From NCBI GenBank assembly GCA_018672815.1, contig JABHDX010000147.1, forward strand, positions 1 through 31,056: DNA of 31,056 bases, in the 5' to 3' direction. Below the pieces are notes generated by a model. It did no database searches, had not been told where the DNA came from, and saw only the letters and a list, made by a program, of their open reading frames with translations. Positions 8,148 to 29,384 of the stretch are shown in pieces. The position numbers and the translations under genes are program-made. How positions within the stretch are numbered: the first letter of the stretch is position 1; every line of letters starts with the position of its first letter. This DNA is from Gammaproteobacteria bacterium. GTDB taxonomy: Bacteria > Pseudomonadota > Gammaproteobacteria > UBA11654.

Positions 8148-8175
8148 GATAGTATAAATATATTAAGAAAGAATA

Positions 8176-14234: not shown

Positions 14235-14300
14235 GTTTAACAATAACAAATTTAAAAGAATACATGCCTTAAGTAATAGGCAAATGGATAATCCAATTAC

Positions 14301-14339
14301 TGCCCATTATTGAGACATTTTTTGTATAGTGGTTGAATG
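14301..14339 (+). promoter_or_regulatory. Conserved upstream element, copy A
   Basis: TGCCCATTATTGAGACA (14301-14317) is followed, exactly 14 nt later, by GTTG (14332-14335) and then TG after two bases. The first 17 bases match copy B (18626) at 16 positions, and the GTTG-N2-TG block has the same spacing in all three copies. It lies 140 nt upstream of the chosen start of the second cytochrome/propeller gene, in the same orientation. It is most likely a regulator binding site or part of a shared promoter; the bound protein is unknown. Confidence 0.6.
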
Positions 14340-14350
14340 AAATAGTGGTT
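14326..14350. repeat. Direct repeat ATAGTGGTT x2
   Basis: Two identical 9-bp copies, 14326-14334 and 14342-14350, are offset by 16 bp. The first overlaps the 3' half of upstream element A. It could be a second protein-binding site controlling the cytochrome/propeller operon, or simply local duplication. Confidence 0.4.
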
Positions 14351-14390
14351 AGTTAATTCTATCATAACAATGATTTAACTATATTAACCT

Positions 14391-14418
14391 TTGGTGCGAC
14401 TCAATTGGTGCGACTCAA
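14391..14418. repeat. Perfect 14-bp tandem repeat in the leader
   Basis: TTGGTGCGACTCAA occurs twice head to tail (14391-14404 and 14405-14418) with no mismatch, ending 8 nt before the AGGAG ribosome-binding site of the second cytochrome/propeller gene. It may be a recent slippage duplication or a paired binding site in the leader. Confidence 0.7.
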
Positions 14419-14440
14419 ATTTTTTTAGGAGCTTATGGCA

Positions 14441-16195
14441 ATGAACAAAACGGTACAATTATTAATCACATTGATCTGGTTATCTACTGGACTTTTTACT
14501 AACTCCATCTATAGCGCTGATGCGACTTTAGGTAAAGTACCAGAAACTGGAGTAATGTTCGGCAGTGTTCAAGGGCCAAATAATTTTATTGCTGCAAAGG
14601 TCTATGCTAAAAATTTAGATAAAAATATGCTCTATATGGTCTATACCAATAAGGGAGAATATAGGATGCCCAATCTGATGGTTGGCGCTTATGAGATTTG
14701 GTCTGAGCATAAGGAGTTACGTTCAGAACACAGTTGGTTGAGGATAGAATCAAACAGTAAAGTGGATGCAGATTTTACTCTTAAATCAGGTCCTGCTGAC
14801 CCACTAACATTGAATGTTAGAAATGCACCACAGGAGGGTAACGTCGTATCCTATGATGAGTTATATCCGCCTGGTGTTGGAAGAGATTTAGCTGAAAGAA
14901 CCTGTATGAGTTGTCATGGACAAATGCATATACCTTCCTATAAATTCGATAAGGCTGGATGGAATGCAATGATAGGTTTGATGCTGGATCCTAATGCACG
15001 ACGTGGTGCAATGATTCAAGAAGGTTCTGGTGTAGGAAATATAACTGATGAGGAAAGAGATTTACTATCAGGTTATCTGGCGGATAACTTTGGTCCTGAT
15101 AGTGTGGATCGAGTCTTGTTTTCTGAGGCTGAATACCCCCTGGATGAGGCAGAATTATCAAAAGGTTTATTTGTAGAATACATGCTCCCATTGGGACCTA
15201 ATACTGATCTTGCAATCAGATCGAGAGCAGAGGCAGGCAAGCATAGAATTTTAGAACCTAAAATTGATAATCAAGGAAATATTTGGGGAACTAATAGTTT
15301 TATTGGTGTAAGTAAGTTAGACCCAAGGACTGCTGAGTATTCCCATTATCCATTTGGCATTGATAGAGAAAATGGAAACCCCTATATTCAAGCACATGGT
15401 ATGACTATTGATTCAAGTGACGACATATTTTGGATAGAGTTTTTTGGGAAACATGTGGGTCGATTAAATCCTGAAACAGGTAAAATGGATCGTTTTCCGA
15501 TGGATCCAGAAAAGAAGGTCTATAATATACAAGGACATACTCCAGATTTGGATTCCAAAGAGAATGTTTGGTTTACAGTAATCACTGGAAATAAGATGGG
15601 TGTTTGGGATCGTCAAACAGAAAAAGTAAGTTTATATGAGGTTCCCACAGCTAATTCGTTTCCATACGGTATCGATGTAGATCAACAGGATAATGTTTAT
15701 TTTGCCCAATTATTTGGTTGTAAAGTGGGTGTTATTAATGCCATAACTAAGGAATTTAAAGAATACCCTGCGCTTGCAAGTCCTTGTTCTATGAATCGGG
15801 TTATGGTTGATAAAGAAGGAATTGTTTGGTACTCATTGAACCGTTCAGGATTGCTTGGACGCCTAGACCCTAAGACTGGGAAACAGATAGAATATCCAGT
15901 ATTACCTTTCCGTGAAGATAGGACAATACCACTATCATCACCTTATGGAATTATGGCCGATCATAAAAATAAAGTTTGGTTTGGGGACCAAGGACTTGGT
16001 GGTGCATTGATCAGGTTTGATCAGGATACAGAAAAATTTGCCTATTTCCCTTTACCAAGGAAAACTGATAATCCTAATATCGATATCACTGGAAAAGGCG
16101 CTATTGTTTATACTTCACGATCTAGTCGCCAAGCGGCGATTGGTATTTTTTATCCCGATGTATCACAGATGACATCTTTTGCAGTTTATCGTTAA
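14441..16195 (+). CDS. Exported cytochrome c / Vgb-like beta-propeller fusion protein (copy 2)
   Basis: This 584-residue paralogue of the fusion at 9739 has the same domain order. A signal peptide (cleavage near residue 25, IYSADA) is followed by a regulatory-like beta sandwich (about 35-115), a cytochrome c domain with heme site CMSCH at 155-159 preceded by YPPGVGRD, and then about six propeller blades such as ENVWFTV...WDRQTEK, DNVYFAQ and GIVWYSL...LDPKTGK. It lacks the lipobox Cys of copy 1. AGGAG at 14427-14431 lies 9 nt from the ATG at 14441 but only 3 nt from an in-frame ATG at 14435, so 14441 is preferred. It heads a likely operon with the MORN protein (35-bp gap) and the second aldehyde dehydrogenase. 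Element A lies upstream. A periplasmic redox role is inferred; lyase activity is not supported. Confidence 0.86.
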   Translation: MNKTVQLLITLIWLSTGLFTNSIYSADATLGKVPETGVMFGSVQGPNNFIAAKVYAKNLDKNMLYMVYTNKGEYRMPNLMVGAYEIWSEHKELRSEHSWLRIESNSKVDADFTLKSGPADPLTLNVRNAPQEGNVVSYDELYPPGVGRDLAERTCMSCHGQMHIPSYKFDKAGWNAMIGLMLDPNARRGAMIQEGSGVGNITDEERDLLSGYLADNFGPDSVDRVLFSEAEYPLDEAELSKGLFVEYMLPLGPNTDLAIRSRAEAGKHRILEPKIDNQGNIWGTNSFIGVSKLDPRTAEYSHYPFGIDRENGNPYIQAHGMTIDSSDDIFWIEFFGKHVGRLNPETGKMDRFPMDPEKKVYNIQGHTPDLDSKENVWFTVITGNKMGVWDRQTEKVSLYEVPTANSFPYGIDVDQQDNVYFAQLFGCKVGVINAITKEFKEYPALASPCSMNRVMVDKEGIVWYSLNRSGLLGRLDPKTGKQIEYPVLPFREDRTIPLSSPYGIMADHKNKVWFGDQGLGGALIRFDQDTEKFAYFPLPRKTDNPNIDITGKGAIVYTSRSSRQAAIGIFYPDVSQMTSFAVYR

Positions 16196-16230
16196 TGAAA
16201 TAACTGAATATCTATACTAAAAGCGTTTAT

Positions 16231-16938
16231 ATGAAACAATTGTTTTTCACTTTACCAATTATGTCATTTCTGATGGTGTCGACTGTTTATAGTGACGATG
16301 ATAAATGTATCTCTGGTAATTGTTTAAATGGTGATGGCACGATGCTTTTTAGTGATGGCTCCAAGTATACTGGACAGTGGAAAAATGGAAAAAAACACGG
16401 TAAGGGAAGAGAAATTCGCTTCAATGGGGGAATCGTTACTGGTTATTATGCTGATGATCGTCCTCATGGTTATGGGACCTATACTTTTTTAAACAAAGCA
16501 AAATATGCAATTGATTGGACCGGTGATGAGAAGCAAAAACTTGGCCCTTATGCCTATTCTCCGGGTGGCAAGTATGTTGGAGAGCATGATAATAGAGAAC
16601 ATGGTCATGGGACAGTTATGTATAACGATGGAGGCACTTATATAGGTGGTTATGATCATGGAAATAAACAGGGAGTAGGTACTTTTGTATACCCTGATGG
16701 CGCAATTTATCATGGTGATTGGTGGGGTGGAAAACCACATGGTCTAGGAACATTTGTTGAGATTAATGGAGATGTATTTTATGGCGCTTGGGAAGATGGT
16801 ATGCCACATGGAGAAGGTATATTAACCCATACTGATAACAGCACTAAAGAAGGTCTTTGGCATAGAGGCGAATTTATCGAAGGCTCTTCTAATGAAAGTG
16901 AAGCTATTTCTAATAAGTCTGATGTTGGACACAAGTAA
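16231..16938 (+). CDS. Secreted MORN-repeat protein
   Basis: This 235-residue protein has a cleavable signal peptide (about 1-21, ending VYS) and then a chain of MORN repeats covering most of the mature part. Clear units include YTGQWKNGKKHGKG (46-59), YVGEHDNREHGHGT, YIGGYDHGNKQGVGT, YHGDWWGGKPHGLGT and YGAWEDGMPHGEG. A CISGNC pair (26-31) near the mature N-terminus could form a disulfide. The C-terminal 20 residues are polar and probably disordered. MORN repeats form beta-hairpin surfaces for protein or lipid contact and have no catalytic residues. The gene lies between a cytochrome/propeller gene and an aldehyde dehydrogenase, so a scaffold for the envelope redox protein is conceivable (inference). 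No strong ribosome-binding site precedes the ATG, so translation may depend on coupling. Confidence 0.88.
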   Translation: MKQLFFTLPIMSFLMVSTVYSDDDKCISGNCLNGDGTMLFSDGSKYTGQWKNGKKHGKGREIRFNGGIVTGYYADDRPHGYGTYTFLNKAKYAIDWTGDEKQKLGPYAYSPGGKYVGEHDNREHGHGTVMYNDGGTYIGGYDHGNKQGVGTFVYPDGAIYHGDWWGGKPHGLGTFVEINGDVFYGAWEDGMPHGEGILTHTDNSTKEGLWHRGEFIEGSSNESEAISNKSDVGHK

Positions 16939-16989
16939 ATATCTCAATACCTATTTATCTAATTTATTGATTTTTTATAAAGTAATTCT

Positions 16990-18510
16990 ATGACCTCTCT
17001 TCGTTCAAATAATGCTCAACTATCAGTTGATAGTGCCAAGACTTTTATTGACCGAGGTCAGCAAAAAATATTTATTAATGGTGAATGGGTAGATGCCTAC
17101 GATGGCTCTATTTTCGAAACTGTAGATCCTGGAACAGGCAATATAATAAACGAGATAGCTAAAGGGAGTATTTGTGAGATAAATGATGCTGTAATTGCTG
17201 CCAGAAAAGCACTTGAGAGTGATCAGTGGTTTAATATGCTTCCCGTTGGTCGAGCAGAGATTCTCAATAAAATTGCCAATATTATGGAAGATAATATTGA
17301 TGAATTGTCTGAGCTAGAAACTCTCGATCAAGGAAAACCATTATATGTTTCTCGTTGGGCAGAAATACCAGGTGCAATTGATCAATTTCGCTATTTTTCT
17401 GGTGTTGCTAGAACCATTGAAGGTCAAACCATTACTTCATCCATCGGTTATCAACCCCAAGATAAAAAGACTTTTAGTTATACGAAGAGACATCCAATTG
17501 GTGTGGTAGCTTGTATTACTCCTTGGAATTCACCATTGGTATTAACTGCAATGAAATTAGCTCCAGCTTTGGCTGCAGGATGCACTATTGTTTTGAAGCC
17601 AGCAACTTATACTAGTCTAACAGCTGTCCGTTTAGTCGAAATATGCCAACAGGCGGGTCTTCCAGATGGCGTTATAAATTTGGTCACTGGTTCTGGGAGC
17701 ACGATAGGCCATGCCCTTGCTATGCATCCAGATGTGGATAAAGTTTCATTTACAGGGTCAACTGAGATTGGTCGCAGAGTGATTCAAGCAGCAGGAGAAT
17801 CCAATCTTAAAAAAGTTCAAGTCGAACTTGGAGGTAAATCACCTCAAATAGTGATGCCTGATGCAGATCTTAATTTAACGATACCTGGTGTGGCTAATGC
17901 AATCTTTTTTAATGGCGGTCAAGTTTGTGTTGCTGGATCCAGGTTGATCGTTCATAAGAGTATTTCTGATCAATTGATTGAAGGAGTGGCTAAATACGGT
18001 CGTGAAATGGTTATGGGTCATGGTCTGGATCCTAAGACTCAGATGGGACCTTTAGTAGCTAAGAGTCATGCCGAATCTGTGAAAAAATATGTTGATGATG
18101 CTTTAATTGATGGTGCAGTTTTAATCTCAGGTGGCCAACTATTAGGTACATCAGGTTGTTTTATGGAACCGACTATAGTTGGTAGTGTGAATCGCGATAT
18201 GGCTATCTTTAAAGAAGAGGTATTTGGACCGGTTCTCACAGTATCAGTGTTTGAAGATATAGAGCAAGCAGTGGCTTTAGCTAATGATAGTAATTATGGA
18301 CTTGCAGCATCATTATGGACAGAAGGGTTATCCAATACTCATCGCATTGCAGATTCTATAAATGCTGGCACCGTTTGGGTAAATAGCCATTTGATGTTTG
18401 ATTCAGCTTTACCGATTGGTGGTTGGAAGCAATCAGGTTGGGGCAAAGAATCGGGTCATCAAGCAGTATCAAATTATCTTAAAGATAAAACTGTGACTGC
18501 TATTTTATAA
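16990..18510 (+). CDS. NAD(P)-dependent aldehyde dehydrogenase (copy 2)
   Basis: This 506-residue aldehyde dehydrogenase has all catalytic parts: Asn180 in ITPWN, Lys203 in VLKPAT, the standard cofactor loop FTGSTEIGR (254-262), Glu279 in VELGGK and Cys313 in GGQVCVAGSR, followed by EEVFGPVL and LPIGGWKQSGWGKE. The N-terminus carries about 20 residues beyond the usual start of the fold. Similarity to the first aldehyde dehydrogenase is clear but distant, and the cofactor loop differs, so these are not recent duplicates and probably act on different aldehydes. It lies 51 bp after the MORN gene. The ATG has only a weak ribosome-binding site (AAAG at 16980-16983). The physiological aldehyde is unknown. 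Confidence 0.92.
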   Translation: MTSLRSNNAQLSVDSAKTFIDRGQQKIFINGEWVDAYDGSIFETVDPGTGNIINEIAKGSICEINDAVIAARKALESDQWFNMLPVGRAEILNKIANIMEDNIDELSELETLDQGKPLYVSRWAEIPGAIDQFRYFSGVARTIEGQTITSSIGYQPQDKKTFSYTKRHPIGVVACITPWNSPLVLTAMKLAPALAAGCTIVLKPATYTSLTAVRLVEICQQAGLPDGVINLVTGSGSTIGHALAMHPDVDKVSFTGSTEIGRRVIQAAGESNLKKVQVELGGKSPQIVMPDADLNLTIPGVANAIFFNGGQVCVAGSRLIVHKSISDQLIEGVAKYGREMVMGHGLDPKTQMGPLVAKSHAESVKKYVDDALIDGAVLISGGQLLGTSGCFMEPTIVGSVNRDMAIFKEEVFGPVLTVSVFEDIEQAVALANDSNYGLAASLWTEGLSNTHRIADSINAGTVWVNSHLMFDSALPIGGWKQSGWGKESGHQAVSNYLKDKTVTAIL

Positions 18511-18625
18511 AACTGATAATAAAAATATAAAGTATAAATGATCTATATCAATTGAAGATTCAGTATAATTTAGTAAGCTAGTTATTAGCACTATGATCTT
18601 GGATTTTTGATTCTGAAAGTTATGA

Positions 18626-18664
18626 TGCCCATTATAGAGACAAAGAACGGACTGTTGTTGTCTG
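18626..18664 (+). promoter_or_regulatory. Conserved upstream element, copy B
   Basis: TGCCCATTATAGAGACA (18626-18642) differs from copy A at one base. GTTG at 18657-18660 and the following CTG keep the spacing seen in copies A and C. It lies 173 nt upstream of TonB receptor 1. A possible sigma-70 promoter (TTTACG at 18706, TAAAAT at 18730, spacer 18) lies downstream of it, which would place the element where an activator binds. That promoter call is weak. Confidence 0.6.
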
Positions 18665-18798
18665 TTGTGTTATCTCTCCTTAGTGTTGGTGTAGAAGAAC
18701 TTATCTTTACGAAATTTTTTTAGTATCGATAAAATATTTAGGGTTAGAGTTTTTTATAAATGTTCGAAATTTTTTAATTGTATTTAGAGGGGAGAAAT

Positions 18799-21165
18799 AT
18801 GAAATTAATCAATAAACTAACTTTGTTATCTTTAATGATAGCAATAGTATCATTTGCATCGCCGTCGTATGTTTTTGCACAAGACGGTGCACTAGCAATT
18901 GAAGAGATTATTGTTACTTCTCGTAAGAGAGAAGAAACTTTGATGTCTGCACCTGTGACTGTTAGCGCTTTTGGATCAAGTGAAATTGAAGATATGGCGC
19001 TTGATGAATTACCAGATTTTGTTAACTTCACACCTGGTTTTCATTATTCAGAGCATTCTGTGGGTAAAGGAGGTCGATTTAATCGACGTTTAATCTTTAG
19101 AGGAATGAATCCACGAACCGATCGTCAAACAAGACAAGGGGCTACAGTTTTTATTGACGGTGCTCCAATTTTGGGTTCAGAGATTGGCAGTACTGATAAT
19201 TATGAACGAATAGAAATTATTAAAGGACCTCAAAGTGCTTACTTTGGCCGTTCAACGTTCTCCGGTGCTATCAATGCTGTAACTAAAACTCCAGGAGATG
19301 AATGGAAAGGTAGAATTACTGCTGAAGGTGCTAAATTTGGGACTCTAGATGTTTCAGGTCAAATAGAAGGACCTATAAGTGATACTGTCTCAATGCGATT
19401 CAGTGCTCGAAGTTATAATACTGATGGTGAGTTTGAGAATGCTAGCGATCCGGGTACCACTCTAGGAGAAGAGTCCACAACTGATGTTTCCTTATCTTTA
19501 TTTGCCCAACCTAGCGATAAATTATCAGTAAAACTTCGCTTACATTCCTGGGTTGATGATGATGGCCCTTCAGTTGGTGTTTTTGTTAATCGCAATGAAC
19601 AACCAGAACTGTTTACCTGTAAGCCTAATGGCAATTCTGTAGCTGGTGGCAATTGGCTTTGTGGCGATGTCCCATACATGGGTACTTCTCTGGTTGGAAT
19701 GGATACAATTATAACTCCAACATTACAGACGAAGTATTTTAGTCCAGCGATGATTGAGTCATATGATCGCATGTTTCAACCAAAACAGGCAATGGGATTA
19801 GAGAGACACGCTAAGGAAGCTAGTTTAGTCATAGATTATGAGATGGATAATGGAATGACGCTATCATTTATTACTGCTGCTCATGAGAATGAGTACAGTA
19901 GTTTTGAGGATTTTGATCGCCGAGTTACCGCTGGCAAGTTAGGAAACTATTTAGGGTTTATGGCATCAGCTGATACATATAGCATGTCCATGACTCAAAA
20001 CAAGGATTCTAGTAGTGAGATTAGACTGACATCTGCTGCTGATAGCCAGATAAGTTGGATGGTTGGCGCTAGTTATACTGACATTGAAGCTAGATTAGTA
20101 GGCTATAATGTTCTCTGGGGTGGGACACCTAGGCCTACTCAGAGTGTCAGTACTTTTGATCCAGAAACTAGAGCTGTTTTTGCTTCACTTGGCTATGATA
20201 TCAGCGATACTTTAACATTAAATCTTGAGCTACGAAAACAAGATGATAAGGTCATTGAAGGTACTCTTGGAAATGAACCACTGTCGAATACATTCTCAAG
20301 TACTACACCTCGTGTCATTTTGGATTATAAACCCAGAGAAGGCTTAACTTATTATGCTATTTTTGCGAAAGGTGTTAACCCAGGTCAGTTTAATGCTGGT
20401 CTATTGGGAAGAACTCAGGGTGAATTAGATCAGATAGCCGCACAAGGCGGTGGTGGAATCAGTGTAGATGAAGAAGAAATCACTAATATAGAGTTTGGTA
20501 CTAAAGCTCGATTTTGGGACGATCGTGCACAGATAACAGCGGCTGTTTATTTCTCAGATTGGGAAAATGCTATCGCACCAGAGATTTTATCGATTACTAA
20601 TGCTGCCGGTGATGGTGAAAATATTCAAGTAAACTCCAATGGCGGTCAGGCAGACCTCTCAGGTCTTGAGATTGAAGGAACTTACTTGTTATCTGATAAT
20701 TGGACAATTGATATGACATATTCATTGAATAAGTCAGATATTAATGACTTTGAGAGTGCAGATGCACTAGCTCTTTTTGGTAATCGAACCATTGATGGAA
20801 TGGGTAATAGTTTTTCTCGTTACCCAGAGAAAAGTAGCACATTATCAGCAATCTATGCTGATACCATGGAGTCTGGAAATGACTTTTTTGTAAGAGGTGA
20901 CTTCATTCGTCAAGGTAGTACATGGATGACTAATGCTAACGTAACTAGTACTCCTGCTTACTCAATATTTAACCTAAGAGCAGGTTTGGAATCTGATTCA
21001 TGGCGGGTTGAAGTTTATGCAAACAACTTGTTTGATAAAGAAGGTTACTCCAATCTTCAACTTTTCCCTGATCTATCAGGTCTAAGTGGTCCTTTCACTA
21101 GAGGAATCATGGCTGGAATGATTCAGCAGAGATCATATGGAATAAGAACTACCTTTGATTTCTAA
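18799..21165 (+). CDS. TonB-dependent outer-membrane receptor 1
   Basis: This 788-residue TonB-dependent receptor begins with a signal peptide (1-27, ending VFA). A TonB-box-like EEIIVTSRKREE (35-46) is followed by the plug domain, with FIDGAPI, then RIEIIKGPQS and FSGAINAVTK. The remaining roughly 550 residues alternate polar and aromatic segments as expected for a 22-strand barrel, and the chain ends in the membrane-insertion type FDF. One extracellular loop has a close Cys pair (CKPNGNS...WLCG). The ATG at 18799 follows GAGGGGAG at 18787-18794; an in-frame TTG at 18778 lacks such a site and would precede the ribosome-binding site itself. Element B lies upstream. The ligand is not predictable; the catabolic context suggests a carbon source rather than a siderophore (inference). 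A hairpin follows the stop. Confidence 0.93.
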   Translation: MKLINKLTLLSLMIAIVSFASPSYVFAQDGALAIEEIIVTSRKREETLMSAPVTVSAFGSSEIEDMALDELPDFVNFTPGFHYSEHSVGKGGRFNRRLIFRGMNPRTDRQTRQGATVFIDGAPILGSEIGSTDNYERIEIIKGPQSAYFGRSTFSGAINAVTKTPGDEWKGRITAEGAKFGTLDVSGQIEGPISDTVSMRFSARSYNTDGEFENASDPGTTLGEESTTDVSLSLFAQPSDKLSVKLRLHSWVDDDGPSVGVFVNRNEQPELFTCKPNGNSVAGGNWLCGDVPYMGTSLVGMDTIITPTLQTKYFSPAMIESYDRMFQPKQAMGLERHAKEASLVIDYEMDNGMTLSFITAAHENEYSSFEDFDRRVTAGKLGNYLGFMASADTYSMSMTQNKDSSSEIRLTSAADSQISWMVGASYTDIEARLVGYNVLWGGTPRPTQSVSTFDPETRAVFASLGYDISDTLTLNLELRKQDDKVIEGTLGNEPLSNTFSSTTPRVILDYKPREGLTYYAIFAKGVNPGQFNAGLLGRTQGELDQIAAQGGGGISVDEEEITNIEFGTKARFWDDRAQITAAVYFSDWENAIAPEILSITNAAGDGENIQVNSNGGQADLSGLEIEGTYLLSDNWTIDMTYSLNKSDINDFESADALALFGNRTIDGMGNSFSRYPEKSSTLSAIYADTMESGNDFFVRGDFIRQGSTWMTNANVTSTPAYSIFNLRAGLESDSWRVEVYANNLFDKEGYSNLQLFPDLSGLSGPFTRGIMAGMIQQRSYGIRTTFDF

Positions 21166-21171
21166 AAACGT

Positions 21172-21223
21172 AGGGGCACAACCATATTATATTCCCCATA
21201 AAATTTCTCTCGGTTGTGCCCTT
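21172..21223. terminator. Hairpin after TonB receptor 1 (possible terminator or mRNA-stabilising stem)
   Basis: AGGGGCACAACC (21172-21183) pairs with GGTTGTGCCCTT (21212-21223) over 12 positions with one G-U pair. The loop is 28 nt and no strong T-run follows directly, so it is not a classic intrinsic terminator. It could protect the abundant receptor mRNA 3' end or give partial termination before the methyltransferase. Confidence 0.5.
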
Positions 21224-21299
21224 AACAGCTTTTCAAGTAAACTAAACCTATAAAAGTACTAAGAACTACATAGTAATTAGCACTAAGGTAAAAATTGAT

Positions 21300-22391
21300 A
21301 TGACTACTAATAAAGCAATTTATATTCGTGGGAAAACTGCAGGAGTCTTCCCGTCTCTTTCATCACGTCGAGATGAAGCTTATGTTGGTTTTATAGAAGA
21401 TGCTCGTAATGTATTACTGCATGCCCAACAGAAGCCTCTTTCAGAATATTGTCGACACATGATCAAGGATGCTGGAAAAACCTTGAACTCTGATCAAAAA
21501 AATACAGCAGAAGCAAAAGATTTGCTCATGAAAGATAATGTTTTAAAAACCTATTACCGAGTAAAACGTACTCTTCAAGAATCATTTTGGGAATGTCTTC
21601 GCAATTCTTTTGACATGCGAAAAAATGATCTACTACAAGCACTCGATGATGCTGAAAGTATTGGTCCAGGATCAGTAGAATACAGTTCAGAATTTTTAAC
21701 TCCTGAGTATGCTAATACTGAGATACATATACAGCCTGGCGGTAATGTCAATGAACCGCTTTCAGGTTTTCTTTATGACTATGGAGCAAAGGTATTTATG
21801 GGTGGTGCAGCTGATAATGACATGTTAAGTGATATGCAAGCCAGCACAGTAGCTGTTCCTAAAGATGGAAAAGTTAAACGAATTCTTGATCTTGGATGCA
21901 GTGCAGGTGTTACGACAACAGCTATGAAACGCATATATCCAGATGCTGAAATATGGGGGATTGATTTTAGTTCTCATATGGTTCGTTATGCGCATGCTAG
22001 AGCGATAGAGAATAATTATGATATAAATTTTAAACAAATGCTTGCTGAAGATCTTAACTTTGAAGACAATAATTTTGATATTATCGTTGCAAATTTATTA
22101 TTTCATGAGGTTCCAGTTTCAGTCTCAAAGAAAATACTATCAGAAACATTGAGGGTTTTAAGGCCAGGAGGTAGTTTTACATTGATTGATTTTCCTGGTG
22201 ACAAAAATGGAGATGTTTACGGCATGTTTTTTGGAGAAATGGATGCTGCTGATAATGGAGAACCTTTCCTTCCTGGTTTTGTCCGTTCTAATGTTGAAGA
22301 TATTATGAAAGAAACAGGTTTTGAGATGGAAGTATACGACCCATCCAAATCTCTACTTGCAGGAAGAATAGGATATAAACCAATTAATTAA
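21300..22391 (+). CDS. SAM-dependent class I methyltransferase with N-terminal helical domain
   Basis: This is a 363-residue protein. The C-terminal half is a class I methyltransferase Rossmann fold: motif I ILDLGCSAG (195-203), acidic residue Asp222 in GIDFS at the end of strand 2, and VANLLFHEV then LRVLRPGGSFTLIDF for motifs around strands 4-5. The N-terminal roughly 180 residues are mostly polar and helical with no motif I recognise; they could bind the acceptor. No signal peptide is visible, so it is cytoplasmic. AAGG at 21286-21289 supports the ATG. It follows TonB receptor 1 by 134 bp (with a hairpin between) and precedes a small gene by 12 bp. It may methylate or modify the imported compound; a quinone or small-acid methyltransferase is equally possible. 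Confidence 0.85.
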   Translation: MTTNKAIYIRGKTAGVFPSLSSRRDEAYVGFIEDARNVLLHAQQKPLSEYCRHMIKDAGKTLNSDQKNTAEAKDLLMKDNVLKTYYRVKRTLQESFWECLRNSFDMRKNDLLQALDDAESIGPGSVEYSSEFLTPEYANTEIHIQPGGNVNEPLSGFLYDYGAKVFMGGAADNDMLSDMQASTVAVPKDGKVKRILDLGCSAGVTTTAMKRIYPDAEIWGIDFSSHMVRYAHARAIENNYDINFKQMLAEDLNFEDNNFDIIVANLLFHEVPVSVSKKILSETLRVLRPGGSFTLIDFPGDKNGDVYGMFFGEMDAADNGEPFLPGFVRSNVEDIMKETGFEMEVYDPSKSLLAGRIGYKPIN

Positions 22392-22403
22392 AATGAAAGC
22401 TAA

Positions 22404-22745
22404 ATGATAGATGACAAATCAAAGGATCTAGAAAATTTTGATAATCTTCCTGGGTTTAAGAGAGGAAATCCTACCTATTTCGAAAATGAAGTAATTGATC
22501 ATCTTATTGATATAACACTTGAATTAGGTGCAGAGCTTTGGGTTGTTAAAGACAGACTTGCTCATCTTGAAGAAATACTATCAAATGAGAACAAAGTATC
22601 TTTAAACTCACTCGACAATGATAAGCCATCAGAAGAACTTCAAAAAAAACTAAACAATGAACGTATTCAATTAATAAAACGTATTTATGGAAGACTCTAT
22701 TCTAAATATGGTGGCGAATCTGCAGATGAAAAGAGTGCTATTTAA
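22404..22745 (+). CDS. Small hypothetical protein, predicted helical
   Basis: I do not recognise a named family for this 113-residue protein. It is charged and soluble with no signal peptide or membrane segment. The middle part (about 29-62) reads as one amphipathic helix, with LGAELWVVKDRLAHLEEIL as its core. A second helix-rich stretch (77-103) is rich in Lys, Arg and Glu, so coiled-coil pairing is likely. The codon pattern and tight spacing (12 bp after the methyltransferase) support a real gene in the same operon. Similar short proteins may accompany enzymes as partners or subunits, but that is only a guess. The ribosome-binding site is weak (GAAAG at 22395-22399), which suggests translational linkage to the upstream gene. 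Confidence 0.72.
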   Translation: MIDDKSKDLENFDNLPGFKRGNPTYFENEVIDHLIDITLELGAELWVVKDRLAHLEEILSNENKVSLNSLDNDKPSEELQKKLNNERIQLIKRIYGRLYSKYGGESADEKSAI

Positions 22746-22864
22746 AATTTACTTTTTCTTTTAATTAATGATAGAAAAAAAAGTCAAAAATTATAAATTA
22801 TATAATTCATCACTTTAATCAATTATTCGTAATTACATAGAAGAATTAAATATCACTATAACTA

Positions 22865-22880
22865 TTGCACACGTTTGCAA
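22865..22880 (+). promoter_or_regulatory. LacI-type operator upstream of TonB receptor 2
   Basis: TTGCACACGTTTGCAA is a near-perfect palindrome with a central CpG, the form bound by LacI-family regulators. It is the exact reverse complement of the site at 29295-29310. A LacI-family gene lies at 26499. The downstream half overlaps the predicted -35 box, which suggests repression in the absence of inducer. Confidence 0.8.
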
Positions 22881-22902
22881 AATATTTCAATGTCATTATA
22901 GT
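22875..22902 (+). promoter_or_regulatory. Predicted sigma-70 promoter of TonB receptor 2
   Basis: A -35 box TTGCAA (22875-22880) and a -10 box TATAGT (22897-22902) are separated by 16 bp. The -35 is the right half of the LacI-type operator. The receptor's ATG follows 41 nt after the -10. A 9-bp inverted repeat (TATAACTAT 22857-22865, ATAGTTATA 22898-22906) brackets the site. Confidence 0.55.
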
Positions 22903-22943
22903 TATATTAAAGACTTTACATAAAAATGAGGGAGCATCTAAAA

Positions 22944-25598
22944 ATGAGAAACATAAATATTTCGATTAAGTTAATTGTAATAGTACTATTATTTTCCTTA
23001 GAGCCTTTGATAGCGCAAACAGTGATCGAGGAAATTACTGTCACAGCTAGAAATCGTGCTGAGAATCTACAAGAAGTTCCACTTGCTATTTCTGTTTTTA
23101 CATCCGAACAATTAGATAAAGCGACCATTAAGAATATTAATGATTTAGCTAACTATACATCAAATATGACTTTCAATAGTAGTGAGAATGGTCGTTTAAA
23201 CATTCCAGTAATTCGAGGAATGGGAATGATAGATACTCGTGGATTTGATAATAATGTCAGTATTTTTCTTGATGGTGTTTTTGTTTCAGGTAGAAGTTCT
23301 CAGAATGTATCAATGCTAGATTTGGAACGAGTTGAAGTCGTTAAAGGTCCTCAAAGTGCCCTTTATGGACGTAACTCTTTTTCAGGGGCTATAAATTATG
23401 TAACTAAGAAACCAAATGATGAATTTTTAGGCAAAGTGACCACAACTGTTGATTTAGACAATATTCGTCAAGTTATAGCTACATTAAGTGGTCCAATTAT
23501 AGAAGGAAAACTCTATGGAAGCTTAGCTTTAGACTCTGATCATGATGGAGGTACTTATATCAACCGACCCGTAGATCGAGAATATCAACTAGGAGGACAT
23601 GATAATGAAAATCTAATGGCTACTCTCCGATATACTCCTGATGAGGCTACTGATATAATTTTTAGTGCTTTTCATGGTAGAGAAGATATAGATCAACTGC
23701 CAATTTCAATTGATGCAAATAATTGTGGTGAGTATAACAATCCATCGGGTGGTTATGACAAGGGAGCTGCTTATTACCATTGTGGAGAAATTAATGGTTC
23801 AGGTACAGATGAATTCAGTATGTCTCCTGAAGCTTATTCTGCTAAAGGTAGTTCATCACGATTTACTCTAAAAATGGATTTTACTTATGATGATTACAAC
23901 CTAATATCCACTTCATCTTATTCAGAGAGTGATAGTCATGGAAATATGGATCTTGATAGGGGATATAGAGGCGCTGAACATTATGGTTGGACTACTGTAG
24001 CAGCTGCACAATCATATTTTTATGGAGGTCCTCTTGCTGGTCGTAGAGCTAATTTAGGACCTATGGGAACTCCACCTCTGTTATCATCTGATCCAGGATT
24101 TCCAGCTCCAACTATACCAATCGGAGGGCTATTTCAGGCTGATACTTATCTGGGAGCACAGAACCTTGATCAGGAGTATTTGTCGCAAGAAATAAGAATA
24201 GAATCAAACTCAGATCAAAGACTAAGATGGTCTGCGGGCGCATTTTATTTTAAATCTGAAAGCACTTCATCAACAGCATTCAATGTTGATGTAAGTGATG
24301 CACTTGAAGCATCTGGTCTGCCTGCTGATCAACTTATTTTTCTAACAGCAGAACCTTTATTTTTCCCCACAGCATTCCACCCAATGTTTGGCTTTCCTAT
24401 CGCCTTTTTCAATGGAAATATGGGAGTTAGTCACCCCGTTCTTGCTCAACCATCTCTGGATCCGGCAAGTACTGGAATAATTTGGTGGGATGGAAGTAAT
24501 CCAAATAATCATCTAACTTCTGGTATTGAAAAAGTCACACAACATGCACTCTTTGGTTCTGTTCAATATGATATTTCAGATCAACTTACTATAACAACAG
24601 AATTGCGTTGGACTAATGATGATCGTAGCCTTTTAAGCACAAAAGATGATTTCTTTTTCTCGCTTAAGACCTTTGAAGCAGCTGGAGTGCCAGCTTACCA
24701 TGAAGTTAAGCATGATTATTGGGATCCAAGAGTAACTCTGAGTTATAAAGCAACTGAGAAAAGTATGCTCTATGCTTCTGCTTCTCATGGCACTCGATCG
24801 GGTGGAATTAACCCCAGTCTTCCTATTACAGCAGATCCATCTTATGACCCTGAAGAGAATTGGACTTATGAAGTAGGGGCTAAAACTACATTACTTAATG
24901 GCAAATTACAGATTAATGCTGCCGCTTTTGTTATTGACTGGACGGACGCACAATTTAGACAGATATTATCTAACTTCTTAACAACAACAGCTAATTCAGA
25001 AGGCTTAGATATTAATGGCTTTGAGATTGATTTCATTTATAACCCAACTGATAATTTATTAATTGCTGGTGGTTATGGTTATGCCAATGCTGAATTTGCA
25101 GATGGAACACTTTGGACAGGCGGTAATGCATTTTGTAGCAAGATGTTAGGACAAGATTCTAGTAGTTACCAGTCACTACCAATTAATTGTGTAACATCAT
25201 CTATCAATGGTAAAAGCTATCCTGATATGAGTAAAAAAATGCCTAAACGTTCTAGTAAGAACACTGCTAATTTAGCTGTTGAATATAGAAAAGCATTGCC
25301 TAAATCCTTGATAAATGATCTTGATGGTTTCATCAGACTTGATTCTTATTATCGATCTAAACAATACATGGATGAAATGAATGTAGCTTTTGTTCCAGAT
25401 CGTATAGTTATGAATTTTAGTGCTGGCGTTGAATCAGGAAATTTTGATCTAAAAATTTGGGTACGTAATTTACTAGATGATGATAAACCAATTTATGCAC
25501 AACAATTTGGAACAGACTTTAATTCACAGTTAACAGTATCAGGCGTAGTGAATCCAACGCTAAGGCAAATTGGTTTTACTGGCACATATAGATTTTAA
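22944..25598 (+). CDS. TonB-dependent outer-membrane receptor 2
   Basis: This 884-residue TonB-dependent receptor has a signal peptide (about 1-25, ending LIAQ), TonB-box-like EEITVTARNRAE, and a plug with FLDGVFV, RVEVVKGPQSALYGRNSF and FSGAINYVTKKP. A long barrel ends in TGTYRF with a terminal Phe. The barrel is about 100 residues longer than in receptor 1, with large loops containing two Cys pairs (around CGEYNN...HCGE, and CSKMLG...NCVTSS). GAGGGAG at 22928-22934 lies 9 nt from the ATG at 22944; the in-frame ATG at 22926 overlaps the upstream edge of that site and is rejected. A LacI-type operator covers the promoter. The GPH symporter and LacI regulator nearby suggest uptake of a glycoside-like or similar small molecule (inference). 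It is followed by the NmrA-like gene after 72 bp. Confidence 0.93.
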   Translation: MRNINISIKLIVIVLLFSLEPLIAQTVIEEITVTARNRAENLQEVPLAISVFTSEQLDKATIKNINDLANYTSNMTFNSSENGRLNIPVIRGMGMIDTRGFDNNVSIFLDGVFVSGRSSQNVSMLDLERVEVVKGPQSALYGRNSFSGAINYVTKKPNDEFLGKVTTTVDLDNIRQVIATLSGPIIEGKLYGSLALDSDHDGGTYINRPVDREYQLGGHDNENLMATLRYTPDEATDIIFSAFHGREDIDQLPISIDANNCGEYNNPSGGYDKGAAYYHCGEINGSGTDEFSMSPEAYSAKGSSSRFTLKMDFTYDDYNLISTSSYSESDSHGNMDLDRGYRGAEHYGWTTVAAAQSYFYGGPLAGRRANLGPMGTPPLLSSDPGFPAPTIPIGGLFQADTYLGAQNLDQEYLSQEIRIESNSDQRLRWSAGAFYFKSESTSSTAFNVDVSDALEASGLPADQLIFLTAEPLFFPTAFHPMFGFPIAFFNGNMGVSHPVLAQPSLDPASTGIIWWDGSNPNNHLTSGIEKVTQHALFGSVQYDISDQLTITTELRWTNDDRSLLSTKDDFFFSLKTFEAAGVPAYHEVKHDYWDPRVTLSYKATEKSMLYASASHGTRSGGINPSLPITADPSYDPEENWTYEVGAKTTLLNGKLQINAAAFVIDWTDAQFRQILSNFLTTTANSEGLDINGFEIDFIYNPTDNLLIAGGYGYANAEFADGTLWTGGNAFCSKMLGQDSSSYQSLPINCVTSSINGKSYPDMSKKMPKRSSKNTANLAVEYRKALPKSLINDLDGFIRLDSYYRSKQYMDEMNVAFVPDRIVMNFSAGVESGNFDLKIWVRNLLDDDKPIYAQQFGTDFNSQLTVSGVVNPTLRQIGFTGTYRF

Positions 25599-25635
25599 TA
25601 GAGTTTTTACTGAACAATAATTAAATACAATCTAA

Positions 25636-25655
25636 TTTAGATATTTTTATCTAAA
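25636..25655 (+). promoter_or_regulatory. Perfect 8-bp hairpin abutting the ribosome-binding site of the NmrA-like gene
   Basis: TTTAGATA (25636-25643) and TATCTAAA (25648-25655) form an 8-bp stem with a TTTT loop. The GGGG of the ribosome-binding site begins at the next base (25656), 11 nt before the ATG at 25671. It could tune translation or mark an mRNA processing point between receptor 2 and this gene. Confidence 0.45.
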
Positions 25656-25670
25656 GGGGCATTAATACCA

Positions 25671-26459
25671 ATGACAGTTTCAAGAAATAAAATTGCTACT
25701 TTAATCTTTAGCATTATGTTTTTAAGTATGTCTTTATTTCATTCAGTGATAGCAGATACAACAAATGAAGATGAGCTGATCTTAGTTGTTGGCGCTTCGG
25801 GTAGAACAGGATCTTACGTTATAAAGTACTTAAAACAGCAAGACAGAAACTTTATCCCAATGACTAGTAATAAAGAACGTGCTGCTAAAAAAATTAGTGA
25901 AAAATATAATTGGGTTGAAGCGGATGTCAAAAACCCAAAGTCATTAGATTCTATTATGGTCGGCGTTACCGCAATCATATCAGGCCTTGGGACAAATATA
26001 TTTGAAGGACCTAACAGCCCTGAATTTATAGATTATGGTGGAACAAAAAATCTGATAGATGCTGCCAAAAAAGCAGGAACAGTAAAACAATTTATTCAAA
26101 TGTCATCATCTGGTATTACTCAAGAAAATAATCCTCTTAATAAATATGGCAATGTTTTGATATGGAAACTCAAAGGTGAAGATTACATTCGATCAAGTTC
26201 TATCACTCATACAATTATTAGAGCAGGTGGGTTAACTAATGATGAGTCAGGTGTTAAAGGAGCAAGAATGCAACAAGGAGATACTGTTCCTATAAATGGT
26301 GGTTTGACCAGTCGAGGTAACCTTGCTGCTATTTGTATAGAAGCATTAACCAATAAGAATGCAAAAAATAAAACATTTGAAGTTTTTGATGATGAAACAA
26401 TGAATGCTGATGCTTGGCGAGAGGATTTTGCAAAACTTATACCAGACACAAAATTATAA
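25671..26459 (+). CDS. Exported NmrA-like NAD(P)-binding Rossmann protein
   Basis: This 262-residue atypical short-chain dehydrogenase/NmrA-type protein has a dinucleotide motif GASGRTG (41-47), preceded by a hydrophobic leader of about 28 residues (ending VIA before DTTNEDE) that looks like a cleavable signal peptide. Later parts fit the family: EADVKNP (acidic residue at a strand end), FIQMSSSGIT and THTIIRAGGL. The catalytic Tyr-x-x-x-Lys of classical SDRs is not obvious, so it may be a reductase of the isoflavone-reductase/NmrA type or a redox sensor. Export of an NAD(P)-fold protein is unusual, since the periplasm has no free NAD(P) pool; the leader could instead act as a membrane anchor. 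It lies between TonB receptor 2 and the LacI gene and is probably under the same operator. Confidence 0.82.
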   Translation: MTVSRNKIATLIFSIMFLSMSLFHSVIADTTNEDELILVVGASGRTGSYVIKYLKQQDRNFIPMTSNKERAAKKISEKYNWVEADVKNPKSLDSIMVGVTAIISGLGTNIFEGPNSPEFIDYGGTKNLIDAAKKAGTVKQFIQMSSSGITQENNPLNKYGNVLIWKLKGEDYIRSSSITHTIIRAGGLTNDESGVKGARMQQGDTVPINGGLTSRGNLAAICIEALTNKNAKNKTFEVFDDETMNADAWREDFAKLIPDTKL

Positions 26460-26498
26460 TAGAAATCTATTATTGGTTGTTAATCGAATTATAGGCAT

Positions 26499-27512
26499 AT
26501 GAAGAAGGAGAAAAGTAGGATCACCTCCTATAATGTTGCTAAGTTAGCAGGTGTATCAAGATCAGCTGTATCAAGAGCATTTACTCCAAATGCTAGCGTC
26601 TCTCTAAAGACTAGAGAAAAAGTTAATAAAGCAGCTAAAAAACTTGGTTATCATCCTAACGTTATCGCCCGTAGTTTGATTACAAAAAAAACTCAGATGA
26701 TAGGGCTACTTATGGCTGATTGGGAGAATCCTTTCTACGCTAGTGCATTAAAAAAATATAGTGAAAAACTTCAAAAAGAAAATTATCAAACCGTTTTAGC
26801 TACTATTAATGAAAATAGTGATATTAATACTTCCATTGAGTTTCTAATGCAATACCAGGTAGATGGAATCATCATGCTTTCTGCTTTACCATCTGAAGAT
26901 CTAGTTCGCAAATGTAATCAAAAACATACACCAATAGTTTTAGTAGGTAATTCATCAAAAGAAATAAATACTTGTACAGTCAATATTGATCATAATGCGA
27001 TTGGAGAGAACTTAGCTGATTTAGCTTTAAATCTTGGTTATAGACGTTTTGTCATGATAAGGGGTGATAAGAATATTGAATCAGGGATTCAAAGAACCGA
27101 TTCATTTTCCAAGGTTATAGAAGAAAAAGAAGAAGGAAAAATCCTTGCTAATTTTACAGGTATATTAGGCCATGATGAGGGACGAAATGCCATGGCAGAT
27201 ATCATAAAAATAGATCCAGAACTTGTAATATGTTCTTCCGATTTGACAGCATTAGGCATTATTGATGGAGCACGCATAGATTATAATCTTGAGATACCTC
27301 GTGATATGGCTGTAATTGGTTTTGGAGATAATCCTATATCTTCTTGGGGTATGAATCGTTTAACTACTGTTCAATTACCATATGAAAAATTAATCGATGA
27401 GTCCATTAGATGTCTCATTAGACGCATTAATAACCCGGAACTCCCACCTAAAAATATAGAACTACTTTCAGATATCATAACCCGTGATACAACCAGAAAA
27501 CTTATGCAATAA
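26499..27512 (+). CDS. LacI-family transcriptional regulator
   Basis: This 337-residue regulator has an N-terminal helix-turn-helix (SYNVAKLAGVSRSAVSRAF, 10-28) and hinge helix NVIARSL (54-60). The hinge Leu60 would sit at the central CpG of the operator, as in LacI and PurR. The ligand-binding periplasmic-binding-protein-like domain follows, with IGLLMADWENPFYA (68-81), FVMIRGD (about 190), AVIGFGDNPISSW and TTVQLPYEKL. Two matching operators with a central CG (22865 and 29295) flank the gene, so it is the natural candidate for controlling TonB receptor 2 and the divergent SDR operon. No operator was found at its own start. It follows the NmrA-like gene by 39 bp and is probably co-transcribed, which would make it autoregulated through the receptor promoter. 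The inducer is unknown. Confidence 0.92.
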   Translation: MKKEKSRITSYNVAKLAGVSRSAVSRAFTPNASVSLKTREKVNKAAKKLGYHPNVIARSLITKKTQMIGLLMADWENPFYASALKKYSEKLQKENYQTVLATINENSDINTSIEFLMQYQVDGIIMLSALPSEDLVRKCNQKHTPIVLVGNSSKEINTCTVNIDHNAIGENLADLALNLGYRRFVMIRGDKNIESGIQRTDSFSKVIEEKEEGKILANFTGILGHDEGRNAMADIIKIDPELVICSSDLTALGIIDGARIDYNLEIPRDMAVIGFGDNPISSWGMNRLTTVQLPYEKLIDESIRCLIRRINNPELPPKNIELLSDIITRDTTRKLMQ

Positions 27513-27529
27513 GCTTATTCTGGTTTTTT
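27491..27529 (+). terminator. Intrinsic terminator overlapping the LacI stop codon
   Basis: AACCAGAA (27491-27498) pairs with TTCTGGTT (27518-27525), and a T-run reaches 27529. A shorter inner stem (CTTAT/ATAAG) may form in the loop. The stem contains the last codons and stop of the LacI gene and the 3' end of the convergent gene. It should end + strand transcripts; no equivalent T-run serves the - strand. Confidence 0.65.
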
Positions 27530-28285
27530 AAATTTGAATATAAATCGTTCTGATTTTCCACGCACATCAGGCATCATAACCATCGTGTTGAGAGCATCAT
27601 CAGGGTTATTCAAGATGTTACTTTCAGCAACAAAACGAAAACCAGAATTTTCAACTTCTTCCTTAACAAGTAGCTTATCTATGCGATGAAATTTCTCAAC
27701 ATCTCGTGTCCCTGATCCTAATTCAGCTTTATGATCAACAATTATCAGAGTACCACCTGGTTTGATTGCATCAAACAATGCCTTATTCATAGCTTCTGTA
27801 TTAATGTTCAGTTGAGATAAATGTGTGTCATGATAGATCAGTACAATGATCGCAGCATCAAGCATTTTAGAAAAAACAGGAGCATTAAATGTACCCATAA
27901 TACTAGTCACATTAGCGCGCTCTTCCGCTATAGGGTCTGTTGGATTACCATTTTTAAAAACACGTGCAAATTCTTTACCATTAAATCCGTAAACATGACC
28001 GGTTGTTCCGACTATATCACTTAGAATTCTAGTGTAATAACCACCTGCTGAACCAATATCTGCCACTATATCTCCAGGTCCTATGTCAGAGAAACTCATA
28101 ATTTCAAATGGCTTTCTGTCTATGTCACGTTGTCTATCTTTTGCAGGCCTTGTTTGATTTTCAATAGCCTTTTGTATGATACTTTCATTTTTCTCATGAG
28201 CATTAGTGCTTTCTGGTGCTGTAATAGCAAAGACCGGTAATAAGAGAATAAGTGTATAAAAAGTGGTTCGTTTTATTTTCATCAT
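27515..28285 (-). CDS. Exported class I methyltransferase-fold protein (COG4798-like)
   Basis: This 256-residue protein has a signal peptide (about 1-29, ending STNA) followed by the sequence pattern of the 'predicted methyltransferase' group with secretion signals: DIDRKPFEIMSF (54-65), motif I VADIGSAGGYYT (74-85), VYGFNGKEF, IVLIYHDTH (about 152) and KPGGTLIIVDHKA. The SAM-binding Gly-rich loop is intact, although SAM is not known to be available outside the cytoplasm, so the true ligand or location is uncertain. AAGGA lies 9-10 nt upstream of the first of two adjacent ATG codons. It is the second gene of a two-gene - strand operon with the membrane-anchored NmrA-like gene (48-bp gap) and ends 2 bp from the LacI stop. 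The product is probably periplasmic; function is unproven. Confidence 0.83.
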   Translation of the reverse strand: MMKIKRTTFYTLILLLPVFAITAPESTNAHEKNESIIQKAIENQTRPAKDRQRDIDRKPFEIMSFSDIGPGDIVADIGSAGGYYTRILSDIVGTTGHVYGFNGKEFARVFKNGNPTDPIAEERANVTSIMGTFNAPVFSKMLDAAIIVLIYHDTHLSQLNINTEAMNKALFDAIKPGGTLIIVDHKAELGSGTRDVEKFHRIDKLLVKEEVENSGFRFVAESNILNNPDDALNTMVMMPDVRGKSERFIFKFKKPE

Positions 28286-28333
28286 TATTTTAATCCTTTA
28301 TAAATTTTTTATAATGCAGTAACTTGAATCAAA

Positions 28334-29191
28334 TTAGTCCATGAACATTTGGTATAGATACAACATATCTGAATCATAAGCAGTAAATGTTTTTCCAATA
28401 GATTGCTTATTACCTAATGCCTCGATTGCTAGATTAGCAACATCCACTCTGGCAATAAAGCTAAAAGCTAAAGGATCTTCTGTTAGTTTTGCCTTGCCTG
28501 AGGATTGTCTATTGCTGAAACCACCAGGACGAATAATAGTATAGGCAAGACCACTTTCACGAAGATGATTTTCAGCCTTTTCTTTTTGTTTAATAACTTC
28601 TTTGTGGCCTCTTCTAGCAAGTGGAGGCAGAGCATTATATGACTCTCCTGTACCAATCACTGTAATGAAAATAAAGCGATTAGCGCCCATTGCTTTTGCT
28701 GAATCTATAATATTACGATTTCCAATAAAGTCAGGACGCTTATTAGGATCCATTTTTACTTCACCTTTGAACATCGATTGAATGAAATTTTGTCGCTTCG
28801 GTAGATCTTTAGCTGAAGTGCCAAGTGTTGATATCACTGTACCAAAGTTATTTTGAGAAAAAATACTCTCAACTTGTTCTTTAATGAGAGCATCAGCAAT
28901 AACTTGTTTAACCCCTAGTTGATTTAATTGTTGAACGTTTGAAGTAGATCGAACCATCGCTGTTACGTCTTCTCCACGATCTATTAACTTTTTAATAATT
29001 TCAAGCCCAACACCTCGAGTCCCTCCAACAATTAGAATTTTATTTGAGGGGGTGACGTAATTTGATGATGTTAAAAATTTTGTAGGAGTGTGATAAATAC
29101 TACTCATTAAGATCAAATATGCACTTATTATAAATACAAAACCAATTATGAGTGAAATTAGATAACGTGATATTTTTAAAATTATATTCAT
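28334..29191 (-). CDS. Membrane-anchored NmrA-like NAD(P)-binding protein
   Basis: This 285-residue atypical SDR/NmrA-like protein has an N-terminal transmembrane helix (about 9-31, very hydrophobic, with no clear cleavage site) and then a Rossmann domain with GGTRGVG (56-62), VIADALIKEQ, VISTLGTS, FIFITVIGTGES and YTIIRPGGFSN. Positively charged residues precede the helix and the globular part follows it, so the topology (cytoplasmic or periplasmic) is open. It shares layout and key blocks with the exported NmrA-like gene at 25671 but is clearly a different sequence. It is the first gene of a - strand operon. Its promoter carries the LacI-type operator on the -35 (29295-29310), so it should respond to the same regulator as TonB receptor 2. 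Two AAGGA-type sites precede the ATG. Confidence 0.82.
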   Translation of the reverse strand: MNIILKISRYLISLIIGFVFIISAYLILMSSIYHTPTKFLTSSNYVTPSNKILIVGGTRGVGLEIIKKLIDRGEDVTAMVRSTSNVQQLNQLGVKQVIADALIKEQVESIFSQNNFGTVISTLGTSAKDLPKRQNFIQSMFKGEVKMDPNKRPDFIGNRNIIDSAKAMGANRFIFITVIGTGESYNALPPLARRGHKEVIKQKEKAENHLRESGLAYTIIRPGGFSNRQSSGKAKLTEDPLAFSFIARVDVANLAIEALGNKQSIGKTFTAYDSDMLYLYQMFMD

Positions 29192-29273
29192 GTCCTTATT
29201 TCCTTCATTTATTTAATAAGTTATTTCTTCAATAGAATTGATTTATTTTTTGTAAAAAATATAGATTATTAAG

Positions 29274-29300
29274 AGTATAATTTATCAAAAGACATTGCAA
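29274..29300 (-). promoter_or_regulatory. Predicted sigma-70 promoter of the SDR/methyltransferase operon
   Basis: Read on the minus strand, TTGCAA (29300-29295) and TATACT (29279-29274) are separated by 15 bp (16 if the -35 is taken as TTTGCA). As at TonB receptor 2, the -35 is the TTTGCAA half of the LacI-type operator, in the same orientation relative to transcription. Confidence 0.55.
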
Positions 29301-29310
29301 ACGTGTGCAA
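29295..29310 (-). promoter_or_regulatory. LacI-type operator in the divergent SDR / GPH symporter region
   Basis: TTGCAAACGTGTGCAA on the + strand is the exact reverse complement of the operator at 22865-22880. It overlaps the predicted -35 of the SDR operon and lies 188 nt upstream of the symporter start, so control of the SDR operon is direct and control of the symporter is possible. Confidence 0.8.
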
Positions 29311-29345
29311 TTGCTATGGCTAAAAAATATCAGGAGTTTAATAAT

Positions 29346-29384
29346 TGTCCACTAATGAGACACACAGTGGGCTCTAGTTGCCTG
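29346..29384 (+). promoter_or_regulatory. Conserved upstream element, copy C
   Basis: TGTCCACTAATGAGACA (29346-29362) matches copy B at 13 of 17 bases. The second block, GTTG at 29377-29380 followed by CCTGTT, continues the match to copy B without a gap. It lies 152 nt upstream of the proposed ATC start of the GPH symporter, in the same orientation as that gene. Confidence 0.55.

Follow-up and report, generated by a model that had tools for sequence, protein, structure and literature searches.

A three-copy upstream element as the putative operator of an IclR-family regulator in a gammaproteobacterial contig

The stretch analysed here, called the window throughout, comprises 31,056 nucleotides, positions 1 to 31,056 of contig JABHDX010000147.1 (assembly GCA_018672815.1), from a gammaproteobacterium of the UBA11654 lineage. 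In it a 39-nt element stands in front of three genes for envelope or transport proteins that otherwise seem to belong to separate operons, and the question is which protein, if any, reads it. The initial annotation of the window took the element for the site of an unassigned regulator or for a promoter architecture common to these operons, and saw in it the mark of a regulon spanning them; both halves of this interpretation hold: it can very probably be read as the putative operator of the IclR-family regulator encoded at 11783..12598 on the plus strand, placed upstream of a weak sigma-70-type promoter in a class I activator geometry. That gene, named initially only as a candidate for binding tests, can be assigned to the element with good confidence on the sequence evidence presented below.

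Copies of the element in the window

The element consists of a 17-nt block, here called the box, followed after exactly 14 nt by GTTG-N2-TG. As the initial annotation described, this two-block pattern occurs at three sites, 14301-14339, 18626-18664 and 29346-29384, and a scan of the window matches all of them without a mismatch, against a mean of 0.02 occurrences in shuffled sequences with up to three mismatches allowed. The 17-nt block alone, at up to three mismatches, occurs three times against a shuffle mean of 1.05, and 8 of 100 shuffles reach three; the case therefore rests on both blocks jointly and on conservation, because the shorter block is unremarkable in a single window. The three copies are real, and chance similarity as the cause of the repeat is ruled out by the shuffles together with the conservation in relatives.

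All three boxes lie on the plus strand. Box A (TGCCCATTATTGAGACA, 14301..14317) is situated upstream of the gene for a CxxCH/propeller protein (14435-16195) and box B (TGCCCATTATAGAGACA, 18626..18642) upstream of TonB-dependent receptor 1, both recognised by pattern match and conservation, and box C (TGTCCACTAATGAGACA, 29346..29362), recognised by pattern match, upstream of a GPH symporter. The agreement of boxes A and B at 16 of 17 positions, and the gap-free alignment of copies B and C over 43 nt, are as first reported; in the latter 30 of the 43 positions are identical. Also as first reported is the common direction of boxes and genes; the distances, given earlier as 140-173 nt, measure 134 nt from the start of box A to its gene (ATG at 14435), 173 nt for box B (ATG at 18799) and 152 nt for box C to the probable ATC start of the symporter (29498). 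The statement that no fourth copy exists has to be amended: a degenerate one, TGCCTATTACTTAAGGCA, lies on the minus strand at 14265..14282, facing an isochorismatase-family gene (13573-14148) and the aminotransferase gene behind it. It came to light through intergenic alignment, in which it coincides with good divergent boxes in five orthologous regions, those of G001 (two loci), G002, G182 and G003; being one base longer, it has no weight-matrix score.

Conservation in related genomes

Relatives were gathered as homologs of TonB receptor 1 from a protein search and aligned, which gave 17 loci on named genome contigs, the closest homolog (87%) coming from an assembly labelled Woeseiaceae. In 4 of the 17 loci (L001, L002, L003, L006) an exact box precedes the TonB gene, and the position of box A is kept at the orthologous promoter in G001 (two loci), G002, G003 and G182. 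Seven of these genomes were scanned whole with up to two mismatches, which revealed further sites, including divergent pairs whose starts lie 35-39 nt apart. At that laxity a reversed control pattern yields as many matches in G003 (10 against 8), so only good sites before genes were used; 2-mismatch matches in larger genomes, which barely exceed the reversed control (20 against 13 in G016), were set aside. In the window and 20 fetched regions, 31 rows were obtained with a loose pattern together with six typed variants. Upstream placement, proposed initially as a check in relatives, is borne out by 28 of these 31 rows, which are followed within 250 nt by a gene start on the same strand; the count includes a site in L065 (G005, a genome without the IclR clade described below) that lies 147 nt before a gene and is taken as chance. 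The logo of the rows reads TGYCCRYTATTGAGACA and is partly constrained by the search pattern itself.

The conservation at orthologous promoters that was to be expected of a regulatory site thus holds for copies A and B; no copy C was detected before the symporter gene in the four relatives L054, L058, L059 and L121. Because of this absence and its longer likeness to copy B, copy C has the look of a promoter gained or copied not long ago. The likeness extends to the box before a hydantoinase operon in relatives, which forms with boxes B and C one group of 8 sites sharing a longer similar stretch, and it invites a simpler account, in which one promoter fragment was recently copied within the locus and no selection for a binding site has to be assumed. 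Yet the box is kept in 20 groups of dissimilar downstream sequence, among them genomes with quite different genes behind it, and in 14 of the 20 the spacing to the downstream block persists, which makes fragment copying highly improbable as the whole explanation. For copies B and C copying is still likely, and it is compatible with the operator reading.

Co-occurrence and linkage with an IclR-family gene

The regulator at 11783..12598 is assigned to the IclR family by both its domains, PF09339 (46.7 bits, cut-off 22) and PF01614 (40.8 bits, cut-off 24), and has the recognition helix PRATVYR. A profile made of seven IclR proteins, the window's included, was used to search 396 genomes of the order, with at most six IclR candidates scored per genome. 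Scores of at least 326 bits are found in seven genomes, the next being 282 (G288) and the remainder not above 260. The exact motif is present in eight of the 396 genomes, and six have both. When the three genomes that contributed to the profile are removed, three of four IclR genomes have the motif and three of five motif genomes have the IclR gene (393 genomes). A smaller test, on 101 genomes of the family that overlap in part with these, gave the motif in five and IclR at E 1e-30 in three, all three shared. In a class-wide scan of 369 genomes the top IclR tier occurs in G001 alone and the exact motif in G001 and G440, in the latter on the reverse strand within a predicted gene, which is taken as chance.

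The sites also lie close to the gene, as is expected of IclR-family regulons, in which the regulator stands near its target operons. In G016, G053, G191 and G380 all seven sites with at most one mismatch are within 10 kb of the IclR gene, the G380 count not being independent because the motif, here as in the class-wide scan, was opened to any base at position 7 after the site there had been seen. In G182 this applies to two of four such sites; the others are on other contigs, and one of these is the hydantoinase-operon box. All 14 examined proteins with the helix PR[AS][TS][VIL]YR (seven picked up near sites, seven from the profile search) have a box of at least 18 bits on the same fetched stretch. 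The next IclR group, with the helix PRTTTYR, gave no match of at least 16 bits in six fetched loci (101.8 kb), one match reaching 14.7; its six genomes contain a single site with at most one mismatch (G185), on a different contig from that IclR gene.

The box does not appear to follow the TonB gene or the pathway. TonB homologs of 59-67% identity from genomes without the IclR clade (L004, L005, L014) lack a box within 700 nt at a threshold of 12 bits, and homologs of 34-42% adjoining the IclR clade have one in seven loci, which disfavours a box travelling with the receptor gene. Of the 17 loci, 16 were included in this check; where the TonB start as called overlaps the box, in G288 and G380, translation probably begins further downstream. 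A box is likewise missing from nine TonB loci of greater distance (37-39%), in whose genomes IclR was not searched for.

Co-occurrence by itself cannot name a binder, and two genomes, G099 and G037, contain sites but no close IclR gene, so that another regulator, be it the LacI protein encoded at 26499-27512 or a factor encoded elsewhere, might bind the box, the IclR gene being a mere passenger of the locus. The LacI protein was rejected as the binder, since candidate operators can be proposed for it elsewhere: two palindromic sites of LacI type (TTGCACACGTTTGCAA and its reverse complement) lie at 22865-22880, upstream of TonB receptor 2, and at 29295-29310, between 29191 and the symporter, and probably belong to it. 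They are conserved, with two in each of L054 and L121, one similar in L058 and none in L059. Moreover, loci with other cargoes have mainly the IclR gene and a distant TonB receptor in common with the window, the TonB homologs of the three genomes without the IclR clade carry no box, and the motif fits an IclR-family consensus at up to 14 of 17 positions. A different binder is improbable on this evidence. With a LacI-type operator also present in its region, the symporter is suggested to be under double control.

Comparison with known IclR operators

Within the family the regulator falls outside two named groups, scoring 112 bits against a cut-off of 284.75 for the PcaR/PcaU/PobR subfamily (TIGR02431) and 121.4 bits against a cut-off of 251 for the equivalog PRK09834, whose name its best NCBIfam relatives bear and which we take to be MhpR.

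Suvorova and Gelfand 2021 (PMC8222616) describe an IclR group 1 motif, TGTYCRYW3RYGRACA, with a TGT-11-ACA subgroup whose regulons are enriched in aromatic metabolism. The box resembles this subgroup in its length of 17 nt and in its left half (TGTYCRY), position 3 being C instead of T in boxes A and B, and differs from it in the right half, where the other departures of the window boxes lie; the site as a whole is asymmetric and points toward the gene. Of the 17 positions of the motif, box A fits 13, boxes B and C and the relatives' consensus TGTCCACTATTGAGACA 14, and a variant in G177 15; among random 17-mers of the window a fit of 14 is reached at a frequency of about 0.0003 and one of 13 at 0.0014.

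Single operators show the same mixture of likeness and difference. The PobR operator of Acinetobacter baylyi (TTGTCCGATSATCGGACAR, Table 1 of PMC8222616) is likewise a 17-bp inverted repeat with a TGTCC half-site, and the variant boxes in G177 and on contig 37 of G182 (TGTCCACTATTAGGACA) have perfect, PobR-like TGTCC-N7-GGACA halves, whereas most sites here have an AGACA proximal half and other spacer bases. The MhpR operator of E. coli (GGTGCACCTGGTGCACA, PMC8222616) agrees in its 17 bp and upstream position and differs in half-site sequence and gene content, apart from the sub-cut-off score mentioned above. The GTCTCA and TGGAC pieces in the reverse complement of the box, TGTCTCAATAGTGGACA, are similar to parts of the IphR site of Comamonas (GTCTCATCAGAC with the half-site ATGGAC, PMC8222616), a likeness seen only by eye and with different spacing. 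PheR of Sphingobium (PMC13273656) is an IclR-family protein that also links catabolism with TonB-dependent receptors, but it is a repressor with another core sequence, and its footprint spans the promoter between -21 and +23. Six exact motif strings gave no match in the literature searched, and keyword searches likewise gave nothing on the motif.

Probable promoter layout and proposed mode of action

What follows the box was examined in a list of 40 sites made by hand. In 29 of the 40 a TTG stands exactly 15 nt past the box, the background at any one position being 2.5%; once sites with similar downstream sequence are joined, 14 of 20 groups have it. Such a preferred distance between site and -35 is what a class I activator-type promoter would show. 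In all, 31 sites have TTG at 14 or 15 nt, and in 22 of these TANNNT stands 16-18 nt beyond it (7, 7 and 8 at spacers of 16, 17 and 18 nt); no other spacer from 4 to 44 nt gives more than 4. The list leaves out the matches in L061, L065, L071 and L072, those at L122:614, L123:13264, L123:18468, L128:4744, L132:6737 and L142:8696, and the second exact site of G037 (contig 58); it is not fully even, because L123:18468, which has the TTG, was omitted and its counterpart L125:117 kept.

The spacing of TTG and TANNNT is the layout expected of a -35/-10 pair, and for this reason GTTG-N2-TG is most likely the -35 region, outside the operator. The second block of the element as first described is thus present, and its role is probably that of a promoter part instead of an operator part. 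In the window the putative -35 TTG lies on the plus strand at 14333..14335 (copy A, without TANNNT at 16-18 nt), 18658..18660 (copy B, the sole window copy with TANNNT at 16-18 nt) and 29378..29380 (copy C, TANNNT at 19 nt). On the assumption of 16-19 nt spacers and a further 7 nt to the start, the centre of the box is computed at -59 to -62. We read the whole as a candidate 17-bp operator centred near -60 and joined to a weak sigma-70-type promoter. A sigma-54 promoter was also considered and rejected, its GG-to-GC spacing being one base short (by eye only).

In the mechanism that we infer, a regulator dimer would bind the 17-bp box with its distal half TGYCC and proximal half AGACA, the centre of the box falling some 60 bp before the point where transcription is predicted to start. 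This corresponds to the class I activator geometry, exemplified by CRP at -61.5, and MhpR too is an activator, bound near -58. IclR bound to an inducer, probably a compound of the pathway, would recruit RNA polymerase to a promoter with a -35 reduced to TTG and a TANNNT-like -10, so that TonB import, inner-membrane transport and catabolic enzymes would be switched on together.

The box could be an IclR operator and the protein nevertheless a repressor, or one acting in a three-box mode like PcaU, PobR and HmgR, with the TTG block as the third contact. Precedents exist: the family includes repressors, activators and dual regulators, PcaU, PobR and HmgR, as well as IphR, have an extra external half-site (PMC8222616), and the repressor PheR also affects TonB receptors (PMC13273656). 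The conserved downstream block, however, amounts to little beyond [CG]TTG, unlike TGTCC/GGACA, and TANNNT is enriched at the distance from it that a -35/-10 pair would have. The box also lies upstream of the -35, a less usual place for a repressor site. Repression or a three-box mode is therefore held to be rather unlikely, to be taken more seriously than a different binder.

Besides the absence of copy C from the relatives' symporter promoters, several observations weigh against activation by the IclR protein from this box. G099, whose assembly is highly fragmented, has three exact sites (four if one mismatch is allowed) and lacks an IclR match at E 1e-8; G037 has two exact sites (three with at most one mismatch) and a best IclR match of only 75 bits. 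Conversely, G177 has the IclR gene and variant boxes only, with no site at up to one mismatch, and G288 has only a 2-mismatch site. Before the IclR gene itself, from 11643 to 11783, no autoregulatory box was found at a weight-matrix score of at least 7 bits; such a site is usual in the IclR family, and the gene may be co-transcribed with the preceding operon. The proximal half, TGAGACA, differs from RYGRACA at three adjacent positions. Finally, the range of -59 to -62 depends on the assumed spacers and the 7-nt discriminator, 9 of the 40 sites lack TTG at 14-15 nt, among them the orthologs of box A in G001 and G182, and no TANNNT follows the TTG of box A itself.

A possible portable module

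The G016 locus carries a second cargo, a FAD-binding monooxygenase and an arylmalonate-decarboxylase-like protein, and has in common with the window neighbourhood the IclR gene, a distant TonB receptor and more general aldehyde dehydrogenase and MFS genes. These observations are compatible with a portable regulator-operator-TonB module, in which one IclR clade, an asymmetric operator and a rigid box-promoter distance would be combined with different cargoes in each lineage. We put this forward tentatively, as possible and short of probable. If it were true, the same 17-bp word would drive the import and breakdown of different substrates, and its asymmetry (TGYCC distal, AGACA proximal, toward the gene) would be selected because only one orientation of the bound dimer contacts RNA polymerase productively.

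Probable target genes

Behind box A, on the plus strand, lie the genes for the CxxCH/propeller protein (14435-16195), a MORN-repeat protein (16231-16938) and an aldehyde dehydrogenase (16990-18510), an operon (14435..18510) inferred from spacing. A tandem duplication of 14 nt (TTGGTGCGACTCAA twice) occupies 14391-14418, between box A and the first gene, and none is seen in the aligned relatives. Box B precedes TonB-dependent receptor 1 (18799..21165, plus strand) and box C the GPH/MFS_2 symporter (29498..30967, plus strand). The degenerate fourth box probably serves a minus-strand unit (12590..14148) of the isochorismatase-family hydrolase (13573-14148) and a class IV aminotransferase (12590-13501). 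A further operon, at 15..11643 on the plus strand, is a probable target as well; it codes for hydantoinase B/A, a thiamine pyrophosphate (TPP) enzyme, an acyl-CoA dehydrogenase, an MFS protein, an aldehyde dehydrogenase and a propeller protein. Because its orthologs carry a box about 114 nt before the first gene (L054:3215, L056:2541, L121:6940), one is expected just left of the window, which begins too late to show it.

The habits of the IclR family and the gene content suggest aromatic or related catabolism as the pathway. The assignment makes of the repeat a regulator-operator pair that is open to testing, and it links what are probably five transcription units, in a little-known lineage of gammaproteobacteria, as one functional unit for import, transport, oxidation and hydrolysis. 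Related genomes can be searched with the 17-bp word for more genes of the pathway, and the regulator may offer a way to the pathway's substrate.

The symporter gene has no ATG, GTG or TTG at the expected start, and its likely start is the ATC at 29498; the aligned start in L121 is ATT, and in L059 it is ATT or a GTG four codons earlier, so a rare start codon seems to be conserved. No relatives of the symporter were found in viral contigs. The window holds two related proteins with CxxCH and a Vgb-lyase-like propeller (9739-11643 and 14435-16195), encoded in separate transcription units. A known RNA element was rejected as an explanation of the repeat, the only Rfam match in the window being a partial tRNA gene at 31012-31056, cut by the window end.

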